From assembly GCA_034509925.1 (NCBI GenBank), contig CM067535.1:8053201-8117200 (forward strand): DNA of 64,000 bases, read 5' to 3'. Both the position numbers and the translations under genes were made by a program. This DNA comes from Hirudinaria manillensis. Taxonomy: Eukaryota > Annelida > Clitellata > Hirudinida > Hirudinidae. Shown one piece after another: positions 49 to 27,999 of the stretch; the stretch's first letter is position 1, and each line of letters begins with the position of its first letter. Under the pieces are notes generated by a model. It had not been told where the DNA came from and searched no databases. It worked only from the letters and a program-made list of their open reading frames with translations.

Positions 49-1837
49 AATGCCCACGAATTCAGCATGCTCCCCGTGAGACACAACGAAGATCAGTTGA
101 ACGAAGAACTTTCAAGAAAGCTTCCCATCAAAGTGGATGCCCACACCTACGACAGGTCGAGCACCAAGACACACCTGCTTTTCCAGGCGCACTTCTCCAG
201 GTGTCCCCTGCCGATCGCAGACTACTTCACGGACACCAAGTCCGTCATGGATCAGGCGATTAGGGTCCTCCAGGTTCGTGATGGAAATGCTGTTATTTTT
301 ATATGGCTTCATTGCTTTTTGCTGCAGGCTTGTTAAACAATGTCATAGCTAAGTCTGTGGTCATGGTGGACACTGTTATCAATCATTATCTTATTTATTC
401 GACCTTTTTATATTTATAATTCCAGTTCTACTCGATTAAATTTATTTTTTTTTATTGAAACTTAATTTAAATTTCTTTTAAATTTCAGTCCATGATTGAC
501 TTGAGTGCTGAAGAAGGATGGTTAGTGACCACTCTCCAGGTCATCCAATTGGTTCAGATGGTGGTCCAGGGATTGTGGATCCATCAAAATCCGCTTCTGT
601 GTCTGCCGCACGTCAATGAAAACCTCCTCCGTTGCTTCAAGTGAGTTTCAAAACAAATTGTTTAACTTAATTAATTGTTGATGTTGTTTAACGAACTGCA
701 AATGATTTCAATGGCAATGTCAAGGATATTCATGTGAAGGTTTACTCACCTATTCACAACATTTTCCACCCTCCTACCCATCCATTCATCTGCTTTTGTT
801 TTTTGTTTACAAAATTGTAATAATCATTAATTAATTAATTAAATTTTAATTTAATTTTTGCATCAGGATCGGAGGGGAACAAATAACGTCTTTGCCAGAA
901 TTGATGAATTTGGCAGGAAGAGAATCGCAGTCACTTGAAAACATGCTCAAAGGATCCTTGAACTCTCAACAAATCAATCAGGTATCAGTTTATTTTCAAA
1001 TCATTCTCATCATAGTGACTGTTGAGAAAGCCAATGCTTTGTAGTCCTAGTTGTTGTTGTTGACAACATCATCATCATCATCATCGTGTGTGCCATAACA
1101 AAACAAAAATAAAAATTTTCAGATTGCAGACGTTCTCAAAGCACTGCCCGTCATAAGAACGAGCATGTCCCTCTCCTGTGATTCATCAAACTGCAACACT
1201 GAAGAGGAAGAGCAAAACTCTAAACCATACTTTATTAAACTCGTCCATCAAGGCAAGTGTTTCATTAACTAATTTATTAATAATAATATTAATTAATTAA
1301 TCAACTAACTAATTTTTAAATCATAAAAAAGAGGATTTTTTCACTGAATTATTATTTAATTATGTTAATTTTGCATTTCATTCAGACATGAGTCGAAGGG
1401 TGGCCTGGACCAAAGTCTCTGCTGGAAGAGACTGCACCTTGTCTGTTGAGCTAAACAGGAACAACAGCATGAAGGTTATTCAAAACTACGCATTTTCAAA
1501 ATCAAAATCCATTATTTCCCACAAAACATCTTGAATCTCATGTAGACATTAACGTAAAATTTCAACTCTTGATTTTCAGAAGAAAGACAATTACGTCCAT
1601 CCCACGAAATTCCCGAAGCCGAAGGAGGAAGGATGGATTCTGGTGCTCGGCGAAGCAGAAACGAAGAACGTCTTGGCTCTGAAGAAGATCGGTTTCATCA
1701 GAAACAGGAGCAGAGTTCAGCTGCTGTTCACTTCTCCCGAAAGACCAGGGAGGGTCATTTACACCCTGTACGTCATGAGCGACTCCTACTTGAGTCTTGA
1801 TCAACAGTACGAGATTTTCCTGGAGGTGGACAAATGA
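49..1837 (+). CDS. ASCC3: ASCC3 C-terminal part (Sec63-type helicase cassette end), 5' partial
   Basis: ASCC3 is the Ski2-like 3'-5' DNA/RNA helicase of the ASC-1 complex (alkylation repair, ribosome quality control). Only the final Sec63 homology module is in the window. Exons read as 49-273, 489-640, 867-981, 1123-1252, 1386-1474 and 1580-1837, and all phases join. Family landmarks are LPVRHNEDQLNEEL, the LPIADYFTDTKSVMDQA block, EEGWLVTTLQVIQLVQMVVQG, and the C-terminal FN3-like strand region ending MSDSYLSLDQQYEIFLEVDK. Intron 4 (1253-1385) starts with GC, in the context AAG|GCAAGT, and only this donor keeps the frame matching the family. The stop is TGA at 1835. The upstream helicase cassettes lie outside the left edge. 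Remembered similarity to human ASCC3 is strong; SNRNP200 fits less well. Confidence 0.93.
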
Positions 1838-1897
1838 TTCCTCGTGGCCAGGATTTGGAAGAGTGGTTTTAATTTGGATGATGGGATGTTTAGGGTC

Positions 1898-1903
1898 AAT
1901 AAA
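1898..1903 (+). terminator. Polyadenylation signal of ASCC3
   Basis: A canonical AATAAA lies 61 bases after the ASCC3 stop codon, with no competing signal closer. It is a reasonable 3' end for this transcript. Confidence 0.6.
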
Positions 1904-2843
1904 GTAGTATTATACTCCAAATACGTGTTATTATCATCATCATCATTATTATTATGTTATGCTATTCTGGTGATCAGTCAATATTACTTAACTTTAGTAA
2001 CTAAATCCTGTTCATATTTGATGTATCCACTTAGGTTTTAAAAACTATTCTTAATTGAAGTGTTTTGAGGACACAATAAATTCGGAAGATAATCCTTTTG
2101 TTTTCATTTCCTTTAGGGTCAAGAGGTGCTCTAATACCTCGTTAAATATTTAGACATTAAGTAATTTTCTGTGACGGTGTGTTTATAGTTGAGAATTCAG
2201 CAGGAATTTATAACAAAATGGTTATTTTGCTAAGTGAAGTTGTGAAAAAAAGATGGTAAAATTTTGTAGCTGGAAAGTTATATCTCGCGCACAAACTATA
2301 TCCATAAATTATATGGCTATACAAATCTATTATTCTGAAAAAATCTGAATTGCACTGCAAGGAAAAATCTGATGACTTGATAAGAAGAATTATCATCGAT
2401 GAAAAGTTCATTCATAATGCATCCATTTTTAAACGAGACAACGTATGCAAATTGTAATTAATAAATACGCGTGTATCGGCTGTACCGGAAAGTTGTCTAC
2501 TGAGAAAGAAATTAGTTTCTCGATTTTCTTTTAGAATTCTTGACCTTGGGGTTGTTTTTTGTCTTTGGACTTTGTTTTTGCTTGCTCGGCGTTATTGGAC
2601 TCTTTGTTGTTTTCTTTGCCGAGCGTTTTTTTGCTGTTCTCTCAAATTTCATTTTGATGCCTGCAACGTTTATTTAATAAGTTGTTTTGAATCAGAATAC
2701 ATTTTCGGTAGTTTAGGTTGCGGCTTAGAATCATTTCGAAATATACTTTAGTAAATTAACGAGCTAATTTTAAGCTTTAATGACAATAACTTCAAATCAC
2801 ATGTAACAAAATAAGAAGTTTAGAATCACGTAATGAAATTCTA
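1904..2843. other. Intergenic interval between ASCC3 and the astacin gene
   Basis: This is the 3'-to-3' gap between two convergent genes. It is AT-rich, with only short unsupported open frames and no splice-linked coding segment. I see no RNA gene or element in it. Confidence 0.5.
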
Positions 2844-4996
2844 TTAACTTGTTTCATAAGAAGCTGAAAATCCTTGGAAGTTGGTGGAAGTAAACGACTT
2901 AAAAACCACGAGCAGAGCATTCGTGGTTGATGTGAAATTCTTGTTCTGCTGTTTTCCACAGAATTTTCCCAAAGACTTTGCATCGTCGTATTCTCCATCT
3001 CTGACATCTATGTACTCCTCTTCGCACAATTCATCTTCTCCAATCTTAATAGAATTAATAAATAGCATTAAATGGCAATCCCTCACTAATGTCAACGTTC
3101 GGAATTTTTTTTAGACACATCTGTAATAGGTTTATAAGTTGTTGGTTAATAACGATTACCTCCACGATGTGGAAAGTCAGTTTGATGACAGTTGAATTTG
3201 GACTTCTGATGAGATAGTGACACAGTTTGAGGAAGGGATAAAAATTCGGGAAACCGGGAGATGTGAAGTTTCCAGCCATTCCGTCCAGTGTTTTGAGGGA
3301 AATTGCTGCATTAATTTAGCATTTAAATGTTCTTTTAAGTTTTCGCTCGAATTCGGTTATAATAAATTTAATTAAAATTGATTAAATCGTTTAATACATT
3401 AACTTCGTTACTTCGATATTGAGCTGACAATCCTGGCGTCCATGATCTAGCTCCGGGAGCCAAATTAAAGTTAATAAGCATCCGCGAACCCGTGGATCTA
3501 ATTATTTTCGGCATTTTTATCGAAGCTCCGCATATTTTTTCTGCAGAATAAAATTAATTTAGCCAATTTTCCTTTATGTAATTGCCAAAAAATGTCGGTC
3601 TAACTTAAAATAGGTGAATTAAAATATCCATCTTTAATCTCCAAGTAACTGGTGCAATTCTTGTTTTTCGGAATTCTGGCTCGAGTTATTCTCATCTCGA
3701 CGATGTCGTTAGAACTGGCCAAAATCCTCCATTGACATGATTGTTTTTCAAAAAATTTCTTCGTTTTGTGCTTCGTAACGAGGCCGTCTCCATTGTAATC
3801 CAAACTTCCTGTGCTTTTGGTCAGCGTCTTTCCACATCCTACAAAATAGGATCAAGAGATTCAAATATCGAATCAAGTATGGAAACATAAATAAATAAAT
3901 ATAACCATAATAATAAGGGAAATAGTAAAATAAAGATCACCCAAATCAATTATTGGTTGATATTAGTTAATACTTGACACTTACCAGGACATTTGTAGAG
4001 CTTATTTGTCTGCCTAATGTCCCCTGGACTTAGGATCGAGCGCTGCCCTACTTTGGCGTAAGAATGCTTGTATTTGTCGTTATTATTATTGTTGTTGTTG
4101 TTGTGGTTGATGCTGCTGTAGTTGTGGTTGTTGTTGATGACGCTCATGAACGCCTTACCACCCTTTGCTGGGTAATAAAGTGGGTAGTGCATGATGCTGT
4201 CAAAGTCATATGGCTCCCCCAATGAATCCAAGTCTTTGTACATTTTGAAGTTGTGTTGCAAATCTTTAAAACATTTTGGTCGAGAATTATTATTATTAAG
4301 TGTTTAAATAATTATTAATAAGTATTATTCTACTTTTTATTTATTTCATATTTTAATATTTTAAATTAACATCATGACTTGAGAAATGATCTGAACAAGT
4401 CGGTGAATTCGTGCAAAATTACAAAAAAAAAAACAAAAAACATCATGGAAGCGAACGTTTGTCGATATTTTCAAAGTGGATGCGAACGTATTTGTCCCTG
4501 TCAGGTCTCGACTGTTCGTGATAGAAGCCAATCGTATGGCCAAGTTCGTGCATTATGTTCCCCATTTGACTGCAGTTCGGTGAAATTGAGAAGAATTGGG
4601 ATCCATTCCTCTTATTACCAACGGGAGTGCAACATCTGAAATCGATTGAATCGATTGATCCGCTTTCAGCTGGAGTAAGATGGAGTGGTTTGTCATTTGA
4701 AATGGGCTAAAGTTTCGATGGGTTGAAAGTTCTGATTATTTACCGTGTAAGTCTTAATGCGAATTAATTTAATGTTATTTAAATTAATGTTATTTAAATT
4801 AATTAATGTAATTTATTTAATAAATTTAAATTACATCGCTACATTTAAATTCTATTCTGTAACGTTAAAGATTGCGCTACATCATCCAGCGTTTCGAAAG
4901 AATTATGGAAATAGTATTTCAAGCGGCAGAGAGACATGTTTGGTAGAAGGAAATTCCAAAATAAATAATCTCTCGACATAATATACACGCTACGGA

Positions 4997-16804: not shown

Positions 16805-17370
16805 GTATTTTGAAAAAAGCAATTTCTGATCTTAAGTTGAAGTTTTCAAATATTTAGCTTTGATGTTATCTTTATGGTTTTCGACTAGCGATGGCTTTGC
16901 TTACAGACCCAATGGTTGGGTAATTTACTAATTTCTTAATGTCTTTGGAAACCTCTATTGCGCCTTAGCTACGAAAACGTTTCCATGCAAGTACTAAGAA
17001 CGATATGAAACGATAATTTCAGGAATTTCACTATTTCCAAGTATCTTCGATTAAATTAGATAATGGAATGAAGCTTAGAATTTCTGACAAAGTGAAGCGT
17101 TGAAGTCGACGATTGAATTGTTATGGATTACAAAATTACCGAATGCCATTATGAATCGAACTCAAATCAACGATCTGCAATTCTTAAAAAGCACGTAGAT
17201 ACGAAAGGGTCAATAATGAAATCATCTCAGGAATTTCACTAAATAAGAAGGAGTTCTGGAACTGCATCAAATTTATTTTATTATCCAAAATTGTTATTGC
17301 AAAATATTGCATTAAATCATAGTTATTAAAATTTCAAAGGTTAGCTTTCAGAAAAATTTTAGATGGTCCA

Positions 17371-18905
17371 TCATTTGCCCAGAGTCAAGACCCTTTTACC
17401 GGCAACGTCCAAATCGGCCAGGTCCTGTGTTCCATCGAGGAGACCGCTCAGCAAATCTCTTTTACCCAGAGACAAGACCCTTTTACCAGTAACGTCCAAA
17501 TCGGCAAGATCCTGTGTACCATCGAGGAGACCGCTCAGCAAATCTCTTTTACCCAGAGACAAGACCCTTTTACCGGTAACGTCCAAATCGGCCAAGTTCT
17601 CTGTACCATCGAGGAGACCGCTCAGCAAATCTCTTTTACCCAGAGACAAGACCCTTTTACCGGTAACGTCCAAATCGGCCAAGTTCTCTGTACCATCGAG
17701 GAGACCGCTCAGCAAATCTCTTTTACCCAGAGACAAGACCCTTTTACCAGAAACGTCCAAATCGGCAAGATCCTGTTTACCATCGAGGAGACCGCTCAGC
17801 AAATCTCTTTTACCCAGAGACAAGACCCTTTTACCGGTAACGTCCAAATCGGCCAAGTTCTCTGTACCATCGAGGAGACCGCTCAGCAAATCTCTTTTAC
17901 CCAGAGACAAGACCCTTTTACCGGCAACGTCCAAATCGGCCAGGTCCTGTGTTCCATCGAGGAGACCGCTCAGCAAATCTCTTTTACCCAGAGACAAGAC
18001 CCTTTTACCGGTAACGTCCAAATCGGCCAAGTTCTCTGTACCATCGAGGAGACCGCTCAGCAAATCTCTTTTACCCAGAGATAAGACCCTTTTACCAGTA
18101 ACGTCCAAATCGGCAAGATCCTGTGTACCATCGAGGAGACCGCTCAGCAAATCTCTTTTACCCAGAGACAAGACCCTTTTACCGGTAACGTCCAAATCGG
18201 CCAAGTTCTCTGTACCATCGAGGAGACCGCTCAGCAAATCTCTTTTACCCAGAGACAAGACCCTTTTACCGGCAACGTCCAAATCGGCCAGGTCCTGTGT
18301 TCCATCGAGGAGACCGCTCAGCAAATCTCTTTTACCCAGAGACAAGACCCTTTTACCGGTAACGTCCAAATCGGCCAAGTTCTCTGTACCATCGAGGAGA
18401 CCGCTCAGCAAATCTCTTTTACCCAGAGATAAGACCCTTTTACCGGCAACGTCCAAATCGGCCAGGTCCTGTGTTCCATCGAGGAGACCGCTCAGCAAAT
18501 CTCTTTTACCCAGAGACAAGACCCTTTTACCGGTAACGTCCAAATCGGCCAAGTTCTCTGTACCATCGAGGAGACCGCTCAGCAAATCTCTTTTACCCAG
18601 AGATAAGACCCTTTTACCGGCAACGTCCAAATCGGCCAGGTCCTGTGTTCCATCGAGGAGACCGCTCAGCAAATCTCTTTTACCCAGAGACAAGACCCTT
18701 TTACCAGTAACGTCCAAATCGGCAAGATCCTGTGTACCATCGAGGAGACCGCTCAGCAAATCTCTTTTACCCAGAGACAAGACCCTTTTACCGGTAACGT
18801 CCAAATCGGCCAGGTCCTGTGTTCCATCGAGGAGACCGCTCAGCAAATCTCTTTTACCCAGAGACAAGACCCTATTACCGGCAACGTCCAAATCGGCTAA
18901 ATTTT
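17371..18905. repeat. 87-bp coding minisatellite (17 full units) with 174-bp higher-order alternation
   Basis: Units of exactly 87 bp follow each other with no indels; only a few bases vary. In coding order, units 3 to 12 mostly alternate a TQD form (usually with Ala before GKR) with a TEN form (with Thr), a 174-bp two-unit period. The pattern suggests recent expansion and homogenisation by unequal exchange. The unit length is a multiple of three, which keeps five of the six frames mostly readable in places. There are no unique spacers, so this is not a CRISPR-like array. Confidence 0.95.
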
Positions 18906-19094
18906 CCAATCCTTCTAGAGTATCTTCGAGTAATGCTCTTGTTTCTAACTCACCGTCTGCGTTTCGAGAAAATTGTTAATTTATGGATATAAAATATTGA
19001 AAACATTAATGTTAAAATTACTTGTTGGGGCGCTTCGGCACACTGCACCGCTGAGAACAAGGCACAAAATCAGAGAAAACAGATAATTCTTCAT
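17371..19094 (-). CDS. Candidate amidated-peptide (neuropeptide-like) precursor with 17 tandem repeats
   Basis: Two exons (19094-19022 and 18956-17371, with a 65-bp GT-AG intron) encode about 552 residues. Exon 1 gives a clear signal peptide: Met-Lys, a hydrophobic core LFSLILCLVLSGAV, then CRSAPT. A short acidic spacer (GELETRALLEDTLEGLENL) is followed by a degenerate half unit with GNR, then 17 repeats of 29 residues. Each repeat has the form DLLSGLLDG-x3-LADLDV-x-GKR-VLSL-GKR. GKR occurs 34 times, the classic prohormone-convertase plus amidation signal. Predicted products are a 19-residue amphipathic acidic peptide (variants TQD..T x4, TQD..A x5, TEN..T x7, KQD..S x1) and the tetrapeptide VLSL, both C-terminally amidated. 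The last unit reads VLTLGK-stop. I recognise no known family. The opposite strand is also open across the array, but lacks a signal peptide and meaningful sites. The function is inferred. Confidence 0.8.
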
Positions 19095-19838
19095 CTTTAT
19101 CCGTTGCTGTTGTACCATCGAATATTCTGAGCTTATATTAGTTGTTGGCTATTGTTTTTCTCTAATCATGCGGAACTAATCAACGTCAAAGGCAACAGTT
19201 TTCGATTGACACCTTTCCTGACAATCGACATTGGCTCGATTATGTCAATTTTGAGACTTCACGACGTTAAAGTTCGTCATAAAATTGATTTATTTTATGA
19301 TAAAGAAGGAAATCTAACAAAGTTCCTGTCTAGTTGAATACTGACGAATTTTATTTTTTTTTACACTAAGTTGATGAAATTTTTCATACTAAGCATTGGT
19401 ATCCTCTGGAAAAAGCATGTTTTCGCTCAATTTTAATTGGTTAGTTATTCAGTCATTTAATTAAAATTGTTTGTACACGATAAATTATTAGTAAACATTA
19501 TATTTAAATTAATATTGAAATTAAACACGCCAATGGAACATTTCCCAAAAATCAATTATTAAAATACACTCAGACCTAAAGAAATTTCCCTTTAATGCTC
19601 AAGAACTGAATAGTTTCTTTCGTTAAACTTTCCAATATTTTATTTAGATGTTCCCGGTTTTGCTCATGATTTAAGTTGAAGATTTCATAAGAAATCTCAC
19701 ATGCCATTATAGCTAAAGAACTAATAAGGTAAGAAAATAATTTGCAGTTTGAGATGAATTTATTCAGAGATTTTAACTCAATGTCATGTCATTGATTTAG
19801 GGCAAAATTCCAGGAAGGATGTCGTTCGATTCGTGTCT

Positions 19839-22800
19839 TCAGTTCGATTCTTCTTTGCCACCATCTTTGTAGGGCTTGTAGACGGGTTTGCCTGGAAGAC
19901 AAAAAAATCAAAATTTAAGTTTACAATTATTAATAATTTGGACACTCTTGATGCCAAATGACACATAAGTTCATAGGTTTGCCAAAACCTGGTTCAGTGC
20001 TCGGGTACAGTTTGACGAATCTGGGTTGAAGGTTTCCAACGCGGTAGAGCTTGTCCAAACTCAGATCGACGCAGGATGGCTCAGTCGGTTTCACCTGAAA
20101 ATAGAAATAAATCGAAATTATTTCATATTTATGACGTCTGAGTGACATAACATGGGAGTGATATAATATGATATACTTCGTGGTAGACCAAGTACACTTC
20201 ATCGTCCTGTTTGAGAACTTGTGGGTTGGAATTGCGTTGGCGATTCTCCAGGTTGAGTTCGTAGCCGGACAAGAGAGGAACTTCAGCGACGAGGAAACCG
20301 CTCGGTTCCTTTTCCAAGTTTCTGGTGAGTAGAAAATGAAGACGTTAAAAATAATTTAAATGGTTGTAATACTGCGATGCGATATAGAAATGATAAAATG
20401 AGTACGACGAGTGTGCACATACACTGCGCAGACTGTCAATGTCAGATGTTCAGGATCCTTCTGTTTCACTTCAACTTTCAGATCGACTGACGTCGGTCTA
20501 CTGGATGGGACGGCTTCATTGAACTCCGGTACGTTCTGCAAAAAGAAATTTAATATAATAAAATCTGATAAATGGACTTAATTGATAGCTAAACAAACCT
20601 GAACAAGAAGGACACCTGCTCCAGACGATTCCAATTTCAGAGGCTTGCTGAGACTGAGGTTGGAGTGCTGAAATAATGAATAAAATGATTATAATATCTC
20701 AAAATGAACTTAAACATTTATATAAAATAATGTCATACGTCAAAGTACAGGCTCGCGACAAACAGTGGACTGAGGACTTTCAAGGAAAGTTGTTTCTTGT
20801 CCGACAAAGTGACGTTGACATCGACGTTGACGTGTTCATGTTCGTGGTAGACGTTGTAGAGACGGAAGTACTGCGATAAGGCCTTCAATGCGACATGTGA
20901 ATCCTGGGACGTGACAAACGCTCCATTGGGTTTCATTGAACTCAGAACAAAGTTGACGAAGGGCCTTGCACCGTCCAAATCGCTCATGGCCAGAGAGGTC
21001 AAGATGGCGTAGGATGTTGCTTGGACGGACAGTGAACAATCTTCTACGTTTTCTCTTTCTCCAACTCTCCAATATTCTTCATCGTCTGAAAAAATAATTT
21101 GATAATTATAAATTTATTTTGTGTCCAACATCCCTGCCACGGTAACTGGGGTACCTTCAAGAACCATCAAGGGGTCTCTTCGTTTCAGAACTTCAAAGAC
21201 TTTGTCACTCTTGGCCAGGGTCAGGGCATAAGCAGCAAGATTGAGTGAATAAGAATCCTTGTCGAGGTCTCCCTTCGTGACGACCTTTTCAATGTACGCC
21301 ACTGCTTTCTTGGTCACTGACTCCACCAGTTTGACTTCTTCCTCAGGAAGCTGTTAAATGATTGAAACAAAATGTACGTCTTATATTTTAAAATCATTGT
21401 AGCAAAGCCGTGACAATTACATCAAGATTGTTAGAAGCTTCGAGAAGTGAGGCAAGCACTTGTGATGTCAAAGGCATGTGATGAGATTCTTCGTCCTGTA
21501 CAAGATAATGAATTTTAGAATTTAATTTCAATTTAATGATAATCTAACGACAGAGCGTTTGTACCAGATCCTTCCTAAGGACAATGACATCCTTATTCTC
21601 AACAAAAGACCCGTCTTCCTTCTGCTGTTTGACCAACCACTTCACAGTTTCAACAACGTGTTCTTCGTTCCAGGAGACCACGTTTCTCAACAAAACTGTT
21701 GAGTCCAACATCAGTGAGGTGAGCCTGCAAATAAATAACTCGAATATTTAGTGAAATAACTAATGGAAATAATGAAATTAATATGAAATAATAAAAATAA
21801 AAAGCGTTTTCCTACCAAAGGTAACCAGGTTGTTTCGGGTAGAATGAAAATGACCCATCTTCATTCTTTTTGTTCAGCAGATACTGCAGAGCTGCAATAA
21901 ACATGATTTTCATTAGAATCAGATATTCTGATTAATAATGAGTAATAATATTACTACTATTAATAATAATAATAATAAGTAAACTTACAATACTGAAGGG
22001 TCTCGATGCATTCGTCTTTGCCTACTGGAACTTCCAATGAAACATTGACTGGCAGTTTTGTCTCGTCGTAGTCCACGAGAACTGAATTGTAGAAGAGCGT
22101 GTTGTTGGCGATGTGCTCGAGTACGTTGACAGCGAGGACGAAATCCAATTTCGTTCTTTCCTCCAAAACACTCGACTCGTTCAAATGCTGGCAGACGTGT
22201 TCAATGGCGGGACCCAAAGGATGACCTGTGTCAATAAAAATGCACCATTTATGAAATAACACATTTCCAGTAGTGGTATCGATTATAATATTATAATTCA
22301 AACCACTTACCGTAGAGCTTGACATGGGCTCTTTCAGACTTTTCTATGGGGTTTGTGATGTTCTTTGGAACGTCGACGACGAGGACTTGTTCTCCGTTGA
22401 AATTGTCGAGCAACAAACTTTCTGATGGCACCACTTCGTATCCTTGGTACTGCAATTTAATGAATAATTTAGTAAAATGAAACAAAGTAACTCTACAAAG
22501 TATCAAACGTTTACTTTAAGTTCAATAGACGAATTGAGTTTGTGATGAACACCATCTGAGACCACTTCAACTTCCAAATCGAGTGGCTCCTGAGCTGTTG
22601 CTGATGTCTTGACAGGGAACGGAACAACGGTCAATTGTTTGGGCTTCAACTGAAATTATTTGAAAATTTTTATTAATTATTTTAATATTCATGAAATACT
22701 CATGAAACTCACGACGACTTCAGAATGCTTGCTTTCCTTGTCATTTTCTCGATGCTCGCTGGGCCAGTCATGACTTTCTCTCACAGTCACTTGAACCTGC

Positions 22801-25800
22801 GAATGATTTCATTATTATTACTATTTATGGACGACATAAGCACAGGCTTTGTTTTAAACCTTAGCTTCTTTCTCCTGGTTGTTGAACAAGTGAACTTCCA
22901 CAACAACCTCTTCGCCGCGCACCACGGATTCAGGATGTTCCAGAGTAGTCAAAACCTTAGACGTTGACATCAGCTGCAAAATAAATAAAAAGAAACGCAT
23001 TTCATTAAAAGTAGAATTCGAACGATGCCAAATAAAAAACAATTATCGTCATTTGCTGTGCTCGCAAGCCAATCCAAAGAATGTTCACCTTAATATAAAA
23101 AGATTTAATTATACCTGCAAAGGTCCATCAACAACCACGAGACCCTTTCCGGGCGTGAGACCAAAAGCAGCGAGGGTGTAAAGTCTCGCTTCCTCGGGGA
23201 GAACCAACAGAAGTTTTTCTTCACCAGATGGCCTGAAAAAAAACATTTTCATTTATGAATATCTACACAATTGTAACAAAGCAAGCTATTAAAGCGATGA
23301 ACGTACCCAACGGTGACGTTGAGCTTCCAAAGATTCGAATCGAATTCTTCGACGGTGTACAGGCTCGAAGGTTCAAGATCATCCAGAGTTCCATTTTTAA
23401 GAGGAGGAGTTGGCCATTGTCTGCCTGAAATAAATAAATAAATTCTTCGTGCAAGAAGAAGAATCAATCACAGCCAAAATATAAATGTACTTGGGTCGAT
23501 GAACAGGAGCCCGTCAGTAAGAAGGAGACTTTCTGATTCCTGCGAAATACAATGAAATTCTTAATGTCTAATTGGTAATATTTAAAAGTAACATTCAGTC
23601 CACAATGAGGCGACATCAACTAACGTTGTGCACTCTTTGAGAATCAGGAACCAACGAGGGAATAGTCGAAAGCAATTCTCCCAACTCATCGATGGTTCTC
23701 GAGAACATGGTTGTATTCAAGTTGTGAAGGTATCTCAGCATCTTCTCGTTGGCCTTTATAAATAAAATATTTAATTAGTCTGATATAATTTAAATGTTAA
23801 TTTACAATTTTCCAACTAACCATCAGTTTACGGACTTCCTGCTCTTTTGGATCGAAGGCCAGAAGATTGGAAACAGACATCAGATACACGTTGGTGAAGG
23901 GTTCTGCTTTCACAAGCAATTCAACGACATCTCCCGGTTCGGCAACTTCTGGTTTCACAGACACTTCCAGCTAAATAGAATAGAATGTAAAAAAATTGCA
24001 TTGAATAACCAATTGAACATTTAAAAAAACTAATAATGTTTACCGGATATTCGTTTTTCTGTTGAACAACAACTCTGAGACTGTCAGAAAGAATCTCGTG
24101 ACTGGGACTGAGGACTTCCACAACAAGACGAGGATTTGAAAGAAGATGGCTGACATTTTGCGGGAGGAGGACAGACAGATCGTGTTTTGTAGCCGGAGAC
24201 AGAGCCACCAGTTTTCCCGCGAGAACCAATCCCGATTGGCAGACGACCTGATAAATGACTTCATTGGTGGGGAACGTTGTCTCGACCTTGGCCTTCAGTG
24301 TTTCGCCGACCTGAATGTAAAAATTATCATTAGGTTATTGGTTTTACTAATATATGAGAATAAAGAAAATAATTTCTAAATTCACTAAGTTCACTCACAA
24401 CAAATTTTGGTGGTTTCTGCTCTGTCAAGATTTGCACAAGGTGTCCATCTTTGTTTTTGGTGACAAATGGCAGAACTTCTTTCATAGTAGCTGTCACGAC
24501 CTTGCCAGATTCCTTGTCTTCAAATTGCGCCTGGAATAATTAAAAAACAACAACTTATGTTAAAAAATATTCAGAAAACGTTCAACTTGTATCTTGTAAA
24601 GTTATTACCTCGAGTTCAAGTTTGTTGGTTTCCTTGGGAACCCTGAGTGAAAACTCGCCGAGTGAGTTTGGTTTCAGTTTCAGAGTGATTTTCTCGTCTT
24701 TAGGACTTCCAGGGTTCGAAGTGTGGTGTCTCACATTAACTGTCACCTCTTTTTCCTCTGAATTGGCTGGAAGCAATTCCTCGACTGGTTTCAACAGAAC
24801 CTGAAATTCAAGGATACCGTTAAAAGAATGTTGTGGAATAGGAGTAAGGAGTTTAATCTCTAACCTGTCCTACGTATGTCAAACCAGGCTTGTAGAACTG
24901 AGGGGTGAATTCACTGAAGAACAGGACATGAGACTGATCGACAAATTGGACGTGGACTTCTTTGACGACGACGGGCACCTTTGACTTCGGTTCTTCGTTA
25001 CTATCCCTCTTGTCTTTTTCCTCCATTCCTTCGTTTTTTTCTTCTTTTTTCTTCTTGCCATCCTCATCTTCCTTCTCTATTTGACTGCTTCCTTGTCTGG
25101 GCAGAGGTCGCTCTTCTTCGACCGTAACTTGAACTCTGACTTCGTGACCCACCAGAGGCTCCTCAGTTTTCAGTCCTAGGGCTTTTTTGATTTCATCTGG
25201 TTTCAGAGAGAAGACTTTCAGACCAGCATCGAGCTGTTGAAATCAATGTCAGTAGTTAGTTAGTGAATCATGATGCATTCTTATAGAGCTAAAACTAGTT
25301 TTTTCTATTAATAATAGTAATAATAATAAAAGGAATGCAAATTTAACCTCAGCTGGCGGCAGTGACCCCGATTTCGTCGAGTTTACAAGAGAAACTTGAA
25401 GTTCGACCTTTCCTTTCAACGGAGCACCAGAATGATGGCTGCATAACAATGAAAAAAGTCATTATTATTATTATTGCATATTATATCATTTAAATAAAAG
25501 AATGGTAACAATTACCTCGCTAGCACACTGAGATCTAGGCTGGGACTTTTGCCTTCATCGCTCGAACGAAGGGTGTGATACTTTGGAGATCTGACATCAA
25601 CCAAGAAGCAGTCGTGATCTGAAAATATTGAAGTTAAATTTTAAGTTAGAACTCATTGAAGTGAATGATATCTCTAAAATAATAATAAAGTAAAGATAAA
25701 TTATCACAAAACTACTTCTGGTCTTCTGAAATCATTTCCCTACCGTATGGTCCAACGGGTTGTTCGACGTGGAAGGTATGGTTGACCTCTTGGTTCTAAA

Positions 25801-26288
25801 ATGAAAAATGAAAAATATCAAATAAATATCTAATACGTCCGTCATAATAAATTAATAATAATAGTATATCTTATTTCTTACGTGGCTTTCCAAGGTGAGA
25901 ACGAATTCTTCCGATTGAAGCAGAAGTGGAAGCAAGTATTCTTTTCTGATGAGACCTGAATTGAAATAAAGAAAGATTTAATTATTAATATAACTGAAGA
26001 AATATGATTCACGATATTAATTTACGACATTTTGAAATGTTACGTAAAATGCAAACCTTCTTCAGCGGTGACGTTCAACCATTCGACCAGCAGGACATCT
26101 TTGGAATTCTAGAAAAATAAGTGACGATTAATTTAAAAATAAATAAATAAAACAATAATAATAATGATAAATTAAGATAAAAATACTAACATGGATGGAC
26201 AGGTTGACAGGCTTCCAGTGTGGTTGAAGCTCCTCTGTGAGGACGAGTGACTCAATCAACACTGAAATATAAAAAAAATATTTAACAA

Positions 26289-26320
<32 letters not shown>

Positions 26321-27061
26321 ATTATATAAATATATTATTTCACTGTTGACAGACCAAGATCTCCAGGGCGATATTTCAGTTTGTCAGTGCGCAGTGAAAC
26401 CAGCAACTCCTTCCATGCTGTTGGAACTTCGACAGAACGGCTGAACTTGAAGCATGAACTAGACTCGATCTTCAGGTCTGAAACTAGTGGCCATTCTTCG
26501 GGCGACACCTGTCGGGCAAAAAAAGAATTAATTAATTAATTAATTATTAGGGCTTGTGAGAGCACGAGCAGTTGAAAATTGTTTCGTAACCAAGAGTCTG
26601 AGGGTTTTCGAGAAACCTGCAAATAAAAAAATTTCGAGTCGGTTATATAATTTGACATGGAGTCCAAATAAAATAAGTTATAAAATAATTTACTTTTCGG
26701 TGTCTTGTCCAGGTCGAGTTTCCAAACAGATCGATGCCACAGATGGTCGTCAGCAGATACACTGAGATCGAGAAGGCATTCATCATCAGCGGGTTTCTTG
26801 CCGTCTTCTTCCTTGGGGTCAGATCGGACGAGGTCGAGCAGGTGCAGGTCAATCAGAAGTTCAGAGCCGGGTACGAGAACATCGCTTGTGACGACGACGT
26901 AGGACCTGGAAAATAATTTTTAAGGAATATTTAATCAACACCTCGTACATCGACATACACCCCTAACGTACGTACGTGTTGCTTGTCGGAACAGCACGGA
27001 TGGCCAAACTGGAAGCGACGAACGCCGACAACAGGAGTAGGAACAACGGATGTCTCTCCAT
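19839..27061 (-). CDS. Alpha-2-macroglobulin family protein lacking the thioester motif
   Basis: A large secreted protein of the A2M/complement C3/TEP/CD109 superfamily, in more than thirty small exons. Early exons are 27061-26976 (signal peptide MERHPLFLLLLSAFVASS), 26905-26694 (SYVVVTSDVLVPGSELL, MG1), a 26-nt microexon 26616-26591, and 26508-26355 (TDKLKYRPGD, the family's TDKxxYRPG). Middle exons give more MG domains (FTPQFYKPGLTYVG). The linker before the thioester domain reads SNLWKLNVTVG, then EEARLYTLAAFGLTPGKGL. The TED begins VKLYGHPLGPAIEHVCQHL (from 22316 down), where the family has ..LGSAMQN..GCGEQ; here the aligned site reads VLEER, so the Cys and Gln are gone. Later exons give EDGSFSFYPKQPGYLWLTS and WLVKQQKEDGSF helices and the receptor-binding domain (PSGFLVAEVPLLSGYEL; YRVGNLQPRFVKLYPSTEPG). 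The final exon (19891-19839) and tail are tentative; reading through would stop at 19930. An acidic/Lys-rich insertion (about 25000-25090) interrupts one MG domain. Confidence 0.88.
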
Positions 27062-27195
27062 CTGAAAATAAAAACAAAATATAATTTATTTAAAATATAA
27101 TATATACCTTTAAATATAACGCTTCACCTCGAATGTAACAAGAAATCGCAAGAAGCAATTTTTGTTACTGAGTGCCAATGGTCTGATCTGAGTCT

Positions 27196-27203
27196 CTTTT
27201 ATA
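27196..27203 (-). promoter_or_regulatory. TATA box and initiator of the A2M-family gene
   Basis: Reading the minus strand, TATAAAAG at 27203-27196 is followed 34 bases on by an initiator-like TCAGT (27171-27167). A short 5' UTR exon then ends at the donor GAG|GTGAAG (27128/27127), and an intron runs to the acceptor directly before ATG 27061. The order TATA, Inr, non-coding exon, signal-peptide exon is coherent. The spacing is slightly longer than usual. Confidence 0.6.
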
Positions 27204-27488
27204 CACTATAAGATCGATAAATGATTGATTCTCTAATTTCTTAATTAAAACTTGCCTCGGAGTTAGCGATCAATAGCCTACCAGTGAAACGTAATTTAAA
27301 ATAATTTAAAGTAATTATAATAGAAATTATTATTATATTTATTTTTAATATAATTATTTTATATAATGTTAGAATAGTGTTTATTTATGGTCTGGATAAT
27401 CTCTGATTCTAATGACATTAAAATTCCACAACTGAATGGTTATTTGAATCATATTTACTTCTGCATTAAATTAAATATATGATTATAG

Positions 27489-27490
27489 GC

Positions 27491-27581
<91 letters not shown>
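27489..27581. repeat. AAT trinucleotide microsatellite
   Basis: A near-perfect AAT array of about 30 units upstream of the A2M-family promoter. Confidence 0.9.
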
Positions 27582-27585
<4 letters not shown>

Positions 27586-27999
27586 TTCTATAGAGATTTT
27601 TTATATGTATTTGTAATTATAATAATAATAATCAGTACAATTATAATATCTAAAAAAATAAGCTATAATAAGATTGAACTAAATATTCTACGGGTAATGT
27701 ACATGGATATTTCTTCCGTTCTTCTCAGATATTTCTTCTGAGTATCTTAAATTGAACAATGTTCCAATAATAAAAACTGATCGAATTCAAACAAGATTAT
27801 CTTTTTTTGGGTCTTTATTGAAAGCTTTCCAATTTTAAAATTTGCCATCAGGTATGATGATGATGATGCTGATGATGCTGATGGTAATAATGATGATGAT
27901 GATGATCGCGACGACGACGATGATGATGATGATGACTGGCCTAAATCAATACATTGTAATTTCCACGTGGAATATCGATATCAAACACCGGTTACCAGT

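Follow-up and report, generated by a model that had tools for sequence, protein, structure and literature searches.

A predicted repeat-bearing precursor gene on the minus strand

We analyzed a 64,000-nucleotide stretch of the genome of the leech Hirudinaria manillensis (GenBank assembly GCA_034509925.1, contig CM067535.1, positions 8,053,201 to 8,117,200 of the forward strand), hereafter the window, and in particular a gene on its minus strand that is predicted to encode the precursor of many amidated peptides. The gene runs from an ATG at 19094 through a 65-bp GT-AG intron, with the donor GT at 19021 and the acceptor AG directly before 18956, to a stop codon ending at 17371, and its spliced frame comprises 552 residues (Table 1). 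The predicted protein opens with MKNYLFSLILCLVLSGAVC-RSAPT, followed by a divergent first unit, ETRALLEDTLEGLENLADLDVAGNRVLSLGKR, which is the 18th unit of the gene and has GNR at its inner site, and then by 17 units of 29 residues; Tandem Repeats Finder reports a period of 87 with 17.5 copies and 93% matches at 17374-18897. The tripeptide GKR occurs 34 times, namely at 17 inner sites, at 16 outer sites and at the outer site of the divergent first unit, and the last unit terminates VLTLGK-stop. An earlier note on this DNA had described a signal-peptide exon joined in phase to 17 repeats of 29 residues with 34 GKR sites, and this was reproduced from the sequence.

Two GKR sites arose by chance in 6 of 200000 shuffles of a unit. 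With copies so nearly identical, the 34 sites should not be counted as 34 separate events, and independent support for them comes from their conservation across loci. A second in-frame ATG lies upstream, at 19118; since the cluster paralogs described below read AAG at that place, 19094 is the likelier start. A putative signal peptide was read by eye in all five genes of the family, with a short charged N terminus, a hydrophobic stretch and small residues, followed by the SAPT stretch. Scanning the window for Rfam families and tRNAs gave no match.

Paralogous genes end at an amidation donor

The genome search covered 148.43 Mb in 23 contigs, and counts from the family searches are lower bounds. 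It revealed five uninterrupted paralogous genes on two chromosomes, with 79 units in all, plus two decayed fragments; a wider query of the genome listed no additional gene, only the known loci and the two fragments. The window gene has 17 units, three genes of a tandem cluster on contig C10 have 15, 8 and 25, and a gene on contig C7 has 14. The first unit of the C7 gene carries GKR at the inner site, where that of the window gene carries GNR. The C7 gene also has a predicted intron at the matching place, which bears out the minus-strand gene with an intron at 19021-18957 that the earlier note had drawn.

The three cluster genes are without the intron. Their frame is open, and exon 1 continues AGT-AAA-AGA, that is S-K-R, a convertase site immediately 5' of the first unit. 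The four bases GTAA mark the splice donor and recur within the array (GGTAAAAGAGAT), from which we infer a deletion between the two places, which would have joined donor to array and taken out the intron and the first unit in the cluster genes while leaving a convertase site.

The inner GKR is intact in 79/79 units over the five genes. The outer GKR is intact in 74 of the 79, and the remaining five are the C-terminal ends, which read GK-stop in four genes and G-stop in the C7 gene; as the exceptions are all chain ends of this form, every array stops exactly at the amidation donor. At its end the C7 gene reads GGC-TAA against GGC-AAA-TGA in the other genes, so that the basic residue is gone and the amidation donor is kept.

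Constraint between loci favors the minus-strand frame

The unit consensuses of the cluster and the C7 gene differ at 12 of 87 bases and at 0 of 29 residues in the proposed frame, against 3 to 11 residue changes in the five other frames (10, 3 and 11 in those of the opposite strand), and none of 5000 random placements of the 12 changes was equally conservative. Between the window and the C7 gene there are 14 base changes (majority consensus), with 9 of 5000 placements equally conservative and 2 residue changes in the minus frame versus 8, 7 and 12 in the opposite-strand frames. The third comparison weighs against the proposed coding frame: between the window and the cluster, with 9 base changes, the constraint is weaker (195 to 214 of 5000 placements are equally conservative), and taking the commonest window unit produces a tie, with 2 changes in the coding frame and 2 in one frame of the opposite strand. 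The minus frame is favored by between-locus substitutions in two of the three comparisons.

We considered whether there is no minus-strand gene here at all, the 87-bp tandem array with its near-identical copies being a satellite-like repeat, or the real frame being the one of 538 residues that is open on the plus strand at 17363-18979 and that would profit from the tie just mentioned. This we regard as extremely improbable, since the 0 of 29 changes (cluster versus C7) and 2 changes (window versus C7) in the minus frame stand against far more in the opposite frames, and since the signal exon, and in part the upstream DNA, are common to dispersed loci and the intron to two. Upstream identity is 76% over 165 columns between the window and C7 genes, 78% over 222 between the C7 gene and the cluster, and 81% over 96 between the window and the cluster; a 30-bp upstream element has two similar copies upstream of the C7 gene. 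Downstream, the window gene's 1500-bp 3' flank matched neither the C7 flank nor those of the cluster, and 92 bp are shared at 76% by the C7 and cluster genes. Judged from the sequence, constraint and conserved upstream DNA together are the signature of a co-regulated protein-coding family and not of a satellite.

Proposed processing and predicted peptides

We propose, with a probability of roughly 0.85, that the product of the gene is a multi-copy leech prepropeptide of the amidated kind, a convertase-cut and amidated prohormone. In this scheme, in which splicing, expression, cleavage, amidation and function are all predicted from sequence, the signal peptide would direct the precursor into the secretory pathway, Kex2/PC2-like convertases would cleave after Lys-Arg, a carboxypeptidase would remove the Lys and Arg, and PAM would convert the exposed Gly to a C-terminal amide. 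Nearly every unit of the present genes would then yield VL(S/T)L-amide together with a 19-residue acidic amide, DLLSGLLDG...LDV(T/A)-amide. A GNR at the inner site, as in the first unit here and in about half of the readable units of the homologs described below, would instead lead to the release of a single 26-residue peptide with the same VL(S/T)L-amide end. The computed [M+H]+ values are 430.302 for VLSL-amide, 444.318 for VLTL-amide, and 1942.997 and 1973.007 for the 19-mer amides, the TQD and TEN forms of which are isobaric.

The secreted-looking, multi-copy amidated-peptide precursor proposed in the earlier note gains support from the five paralogs, with their similar putative signal peptides, the shared terminal amidation donor, the constraint on the unit, and the presence in the genome of PAM, convertase P-domains and 7B2. 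The PHM-type copper domain of PAM has five matches at three loci, and a single, uninterrupted frame at C1:8126322-8129735 of at least 1128 residues holds two PHM-type copper-monooxygenase regions in tandem and, after them, NHL (lyase) repeats; two PHM copies per PAM chain are unusual. A membrane anchor was seen by eye in the same frame. There are 2 matches for 7B2 and 13 for the convertase P-domain. These enzymes are general animal equipment, necessary for the proposed processing and not specific to it, which tempers the support that they lend.

A role as a neuropeptide or hormone is, in our judgment, the probable one, with a gland peptide second. The latter would involve the same processing and an exocrine destination, in the salivary, skin or mucous glands. 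It would agree with the high copy number, the five genes and the tandem cluster, features that are also usual for gland peptides, and with the many bioactive proteins that, according to PMC10671345, are secreted from leech salivary glands. The 19-mers, however, are acidic (side-chain charge -4 to -5), unlike cationic antimicrobial peptides, and they are cysteine-free, unlike most H. manillensis antithrombotic proteins as described in the abstract of PMC10671345; neither point is decisive. We hold the exocrine role to be possible and the less likely. The 19-mers had also been labeled amphipathic, a label that proved weak: the helical moment of the four 19-mers is modest and is reached by 627 to 3044 of 10000 shuffles. 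Being acidic and of only modest helical moment, they are not called amphipathic here, and a cationic-type antimicrobial role is thought unlikely.

Homologous proteins and the inner and outer sites

Exon 2 gave no match at E <= 10 among 7998 scored when compared with 5.8 billion proteins. With a 146-residue construct, two related proteins were found among 7992 scored, P0041 and P0042 (201 and 86 residues, E values of 8.5e-76 and 1e-19), from two ENA contigs. Their units read DLLSGVLGGVDDLAALDVAGNRVLTLGKR and DLLSGVLGGVDNLADLDVAGKRVLSLGKR, alternating where several run in frame, and both predictions hold stretches that look frame-shifted or foreign. The counts that follow leave out, in P0041, a unit with its inner site lost to a frame shift, one outer site lost likewise and a leading MGKR, and, in P0042, a unit without a readable inner site and an outer site cut after G. 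Viral contigs probed with P0041 gave 62 pattern matches, none of which was confirmed.

The outer site is LGKR in 6/6 readable homolog units, a seventh being cut after G. The inner site reads GNR in 4/7 readable units and GKR in 3/7, which counts against a general release of two peptides per unit. Since the outer site is constant and the inner site variable, the conserved predicted product is the peptide that ends in VL(S/T)L-amide. The earlier note had predicted two peptides in equal number; this is not fully supported, since it would apply to the H. manillensis repeated units, from which the inner GKR is never lost, but not to the window gene's first unit or to the GNR-bearing units of the homologs. 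Division of the unit into a 19-mer and a tetrapeptide, predicted to be near complete in H. manillensis and incomplete in the homologs, looks like a lineage-dependent extra cut.

Another hypothesis is that the inner GKR is not used, or rarely so, and that a single 26-residue peptide with a VL(S/T)L-amide end comes from each unit. The GNR of the homologs and of the first window unit would fit this, as would the retention of the outer GKR in every readable homolog unit and everywhere in H. manillensis save at chain ends. Yet Gly-Lys-Arg is an equally good site at the inner and the outer position, and the inner GKR is intact throughout the five H. manillensis genes, and we regard disuse of the inner site as possible though doubtful.

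Returning to a precursor cut at both sites, we tentatively suggest a leech-lineage hormone family in which a 26-residue VL(S/T)L-amide ancestor is being split in two by a single Asn-to-Lys change (GNR to GKR), a speculative proposal in which the direction from GNR to GKR is itself deduced. If it is true, a second cleavage and amidation site has arisen within an ancestral peptide, and the tetrapeptide and 19-mer amides would now be made one-to-one; the mix of GNR and GKR among homologous proteins would then show something of the way in which a further cleavage product may be acquired by a prohormone.

Resemblance to leucine-rich repeats

An uncleaved secreted repeat protein, either a ribonuclease-inhibitor-type leucine-rich repeat (LRR) or a beta-solenoid structural protein, is a further rival to the prohormone. 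phmmer matches the array to ribonuclease inhibitor chains in the PDB (1dfj) at a best E value of 1.5e-8, with the leucines in register and a period of 29 residues in both, and the match was reached by 0 of 500 free shuffles (by 0, 2, 0 and 0 of 300 for four units). Because few or no free shuffles reach it, the likeness to ribonuclease inhibitors is more than composition. Shuffles that kept the hydrophobic pattern, however, scored at least as high in 8 of 300 cases, one of them at 52 bits versus 31. The LRR consensus LxxLxLxxNxL fits the leucines, and its asparagine is found in the window gene's first unit (LADLDVAGNRV) and in the four GNR units of the homologs, but its place is taken by Lys in all 79 units. 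No LRR family is listed by Pfam when exon 2 is searched at E <= 1, nor with three pieces at E <= 10, a threshold at which HMMER filters drop most matches above 0.1.

AlphaFold2, run without an alignment, gave for the 8-unit paralog an all-beta solenoid as the best of five models, with a predicted local distance difference test score (pLDDT) of 77 and a predicted template modeling score (pTM) of 0.75, which would speak for a structural protein. The models disagree among themselves, however, with pLDDT falling from 65 to 33 for the window array and from 77 to 33 for the 8-unit paralog, and for perfect repeats beta-solenoids are a common outcome of AlphaFold2. The best models of both the window array and the 8-unit paralog are all-beta and without helix, which argues against an LRR fold, a weak test on single sequences. 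With neither model did Foldseek find a PDB match at E <= 0.001; among the best 50 of 77 weak matches to the 8-unit model were three LRR-containing chains (7fii_R, 6fnw and 4kxf_D, E values 3.0 to 5.5). Finally, there is no cap: in 5/5 genes the chain breaks off within a repeat, at the amidation donor.

The LRR resemblance is real at the level of sequence and fails the Pfam test and the (weak) structure test. An uncleaved LRR or solenoid protein is in our view improbable, and the unit may nevertheless descend remotely from an LRR. Two further Pfam candidates were rejected. The spider Latarcin precursor family (PF10279) matched at E values of 0.073-0.58 and at best 13.8 of 25 bits, far below the curated cut-off; it aligned weakly with the acidic N-terminal stretch and was read as a match of acidic composition. 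A match to the membrane-anchor family PF25471 was likewise below the cut-off.

Comparison with known precursors

The predicted prohormone resembles several known kinds of precursor. The APGWamide precursors of mollusks are likewise multi-copy and release an amidated tetrapeptide at G-K-R sites; here, in a leech and not a mollusk, the tetrapeptide would be VL(S/T)L-amide, which is unrelated in sequence, and the spacer, which has a GKR end of its own, would be amidated too. Pedal peptide/orcokinin-type precursors have similarly long arrays with similar acidic, medium-length peptides between Lys-Arg sites, whereas their peptides typically are not amidated and carry other motifs. FMRFamide-type and other multi-copy amidated prohormones (for an annelid set, see PMC3890597) share the signal peptide, the near-identical copies, the Gly-Lys-Arg sites and amidation by PAM; they differ from the present family, which would have -Leu-amide after VL(S/T) and no aromatic or RFamide C terminus, and which has five paralogs of up to 25 units.

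Pfam gave no match above cut-off for exon 2 or the three pieces. The strings VLSLamide, VLSLGKR, LSLamide, LTLamide, LSLGKR, DLLSGLLDG, DLLSGVLGG, VLTL-NH2, VLSL-NH2, LTL-NH2 and LSL-NH2 were not found in the open-access literature, supplements excluded. The string LTLGKR occurred there only in two papers that, by their titles, concern prepro-orexin/hypocretin, and the lone further string match was a misread print of 1838. A leech natriuretic-like precursor is named in PMC12343078 and is not the present precursor. The earlier remark that neither peptide sequence is known from a described family holds within the scope of Pfam and the open-access literature, and we are apparently dealing with an undescribed family of a known kind of gene.

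Leeches have long served to relate identified neurons to behavior and are also a source of drugs, and to our knowledge their peptide hormones are only partly catalogued. A constrained family with conserved DNA upstream, given over to many copies of an unfamiliar, putatively amidated peptide, predicts a signaling or gland peptide.

Table 1. Predicted features of the window gene and locations of related genes and fragments (plain coordinates refer to the window; prefixed coordinates refer to genome contigs)
Feature	Position	Strand	Basis or remark
Exon 1: signal peptide MKNYLFSLILCLVLSGAVC and RSAPT	19022..19094	-	Homologous exon in the C7 gene, with the intron at the same place; signal peptide by eye
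Predicted 65-bp GT-AG intron	18957..19021	-	C7 paralog has a 72-bp intron, same position and phase
Exon 2: divergent first unit and 17 units, stop TGA	17371..18956	-	Sequence reading
Divergent first unit ETRALLEDTLEGLENLADLDVAGNRVLSLGKR, inner GNR	18850..18956	-	C7 counterpart ETRALLGDTLGGLQNLADLDVAGKRVLTLGKR
17-unit array, 87 bp each	17371..18849	-	DLLSGLLDG-TQD/TEN/KQD-LADLDV(T/A/S)GKR-VL(S/T)L-GKR; last unit VLTLGK-stop
Candidate polyadenylation signal AATAAA	17272..17277	-	Putative function
Promoter-proximal DNA	19096..19259	-	Conserved with the C7 gene (76%, 165 columns), partly with the C10 cluster
TATA-like ATATAA	19138-19133	-	Putative function
30-bp upstream element around TGACATAATCGAGCCAATGTCGAT	19224..19253	-	blastn: 97% identity in cluster gene C10b
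Cluster gene, 15 units	C10:6430034-6431419		Tandem cluster member
Cluster gene, 8 units	C10:6433447-6434223		Tandem cluster member
Cluster gene, 25 units	C10:6436252-6438507		Tandem cluster member
C7 gene, 14 units following divergent first unit ETRALLGDTLGGLQNLADLDVAGKRVLTLGKR	C7:6056947 onward		
Decayed fragment	C10:6438905-6439075		
Decayed fragment, about 1.5 units, without the remainder of the gene	C3:7523413-7523526	-	

Neighboring gene and other observations

Directly upstream of the precursor gene, an alpha-2-macroglobulin/TEP-like gene occupies window positions 19700-27700 on the minus strand. A model joined by hand shows only 22-26% identity to 40 relatives among the matches listed. 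The usual thioester motif is GCGEQ or GCAEQ, and neither string was present in any of the three frames of the minus strand, leaving aside motifs interrupted by an intron.

Elsewhere in the genome, hirudin-family matches are clustered at C4:12236592-12249728 (8 at E <= 1, the best at 5.8e-6), and antistasin repeats are numerous, with 63 matches. The mitochondrial contig, C23, carries genes that were recognized by eye on one strand in the order cox1-cox2-cox3-trnQ-nad6-cob...nad4...nad1-nad3-nad2, which we take to be the annelid ground pattern. A COX3 copy on a nuclear contig (C9:3029041-3029805) scores exactly as the mitochondrial one does (311.1 bits) and is either a recent nuclear insertion or an assembly artifact. 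A 17-base pattern for the 5' end of 18S ribosomal RNA had its only exact match at C4:12699990-12702800, a region that is ribosomal RNA-like for a few hundred bases and then passes into unrelated sequence that, by eye, looks like a retroelement.

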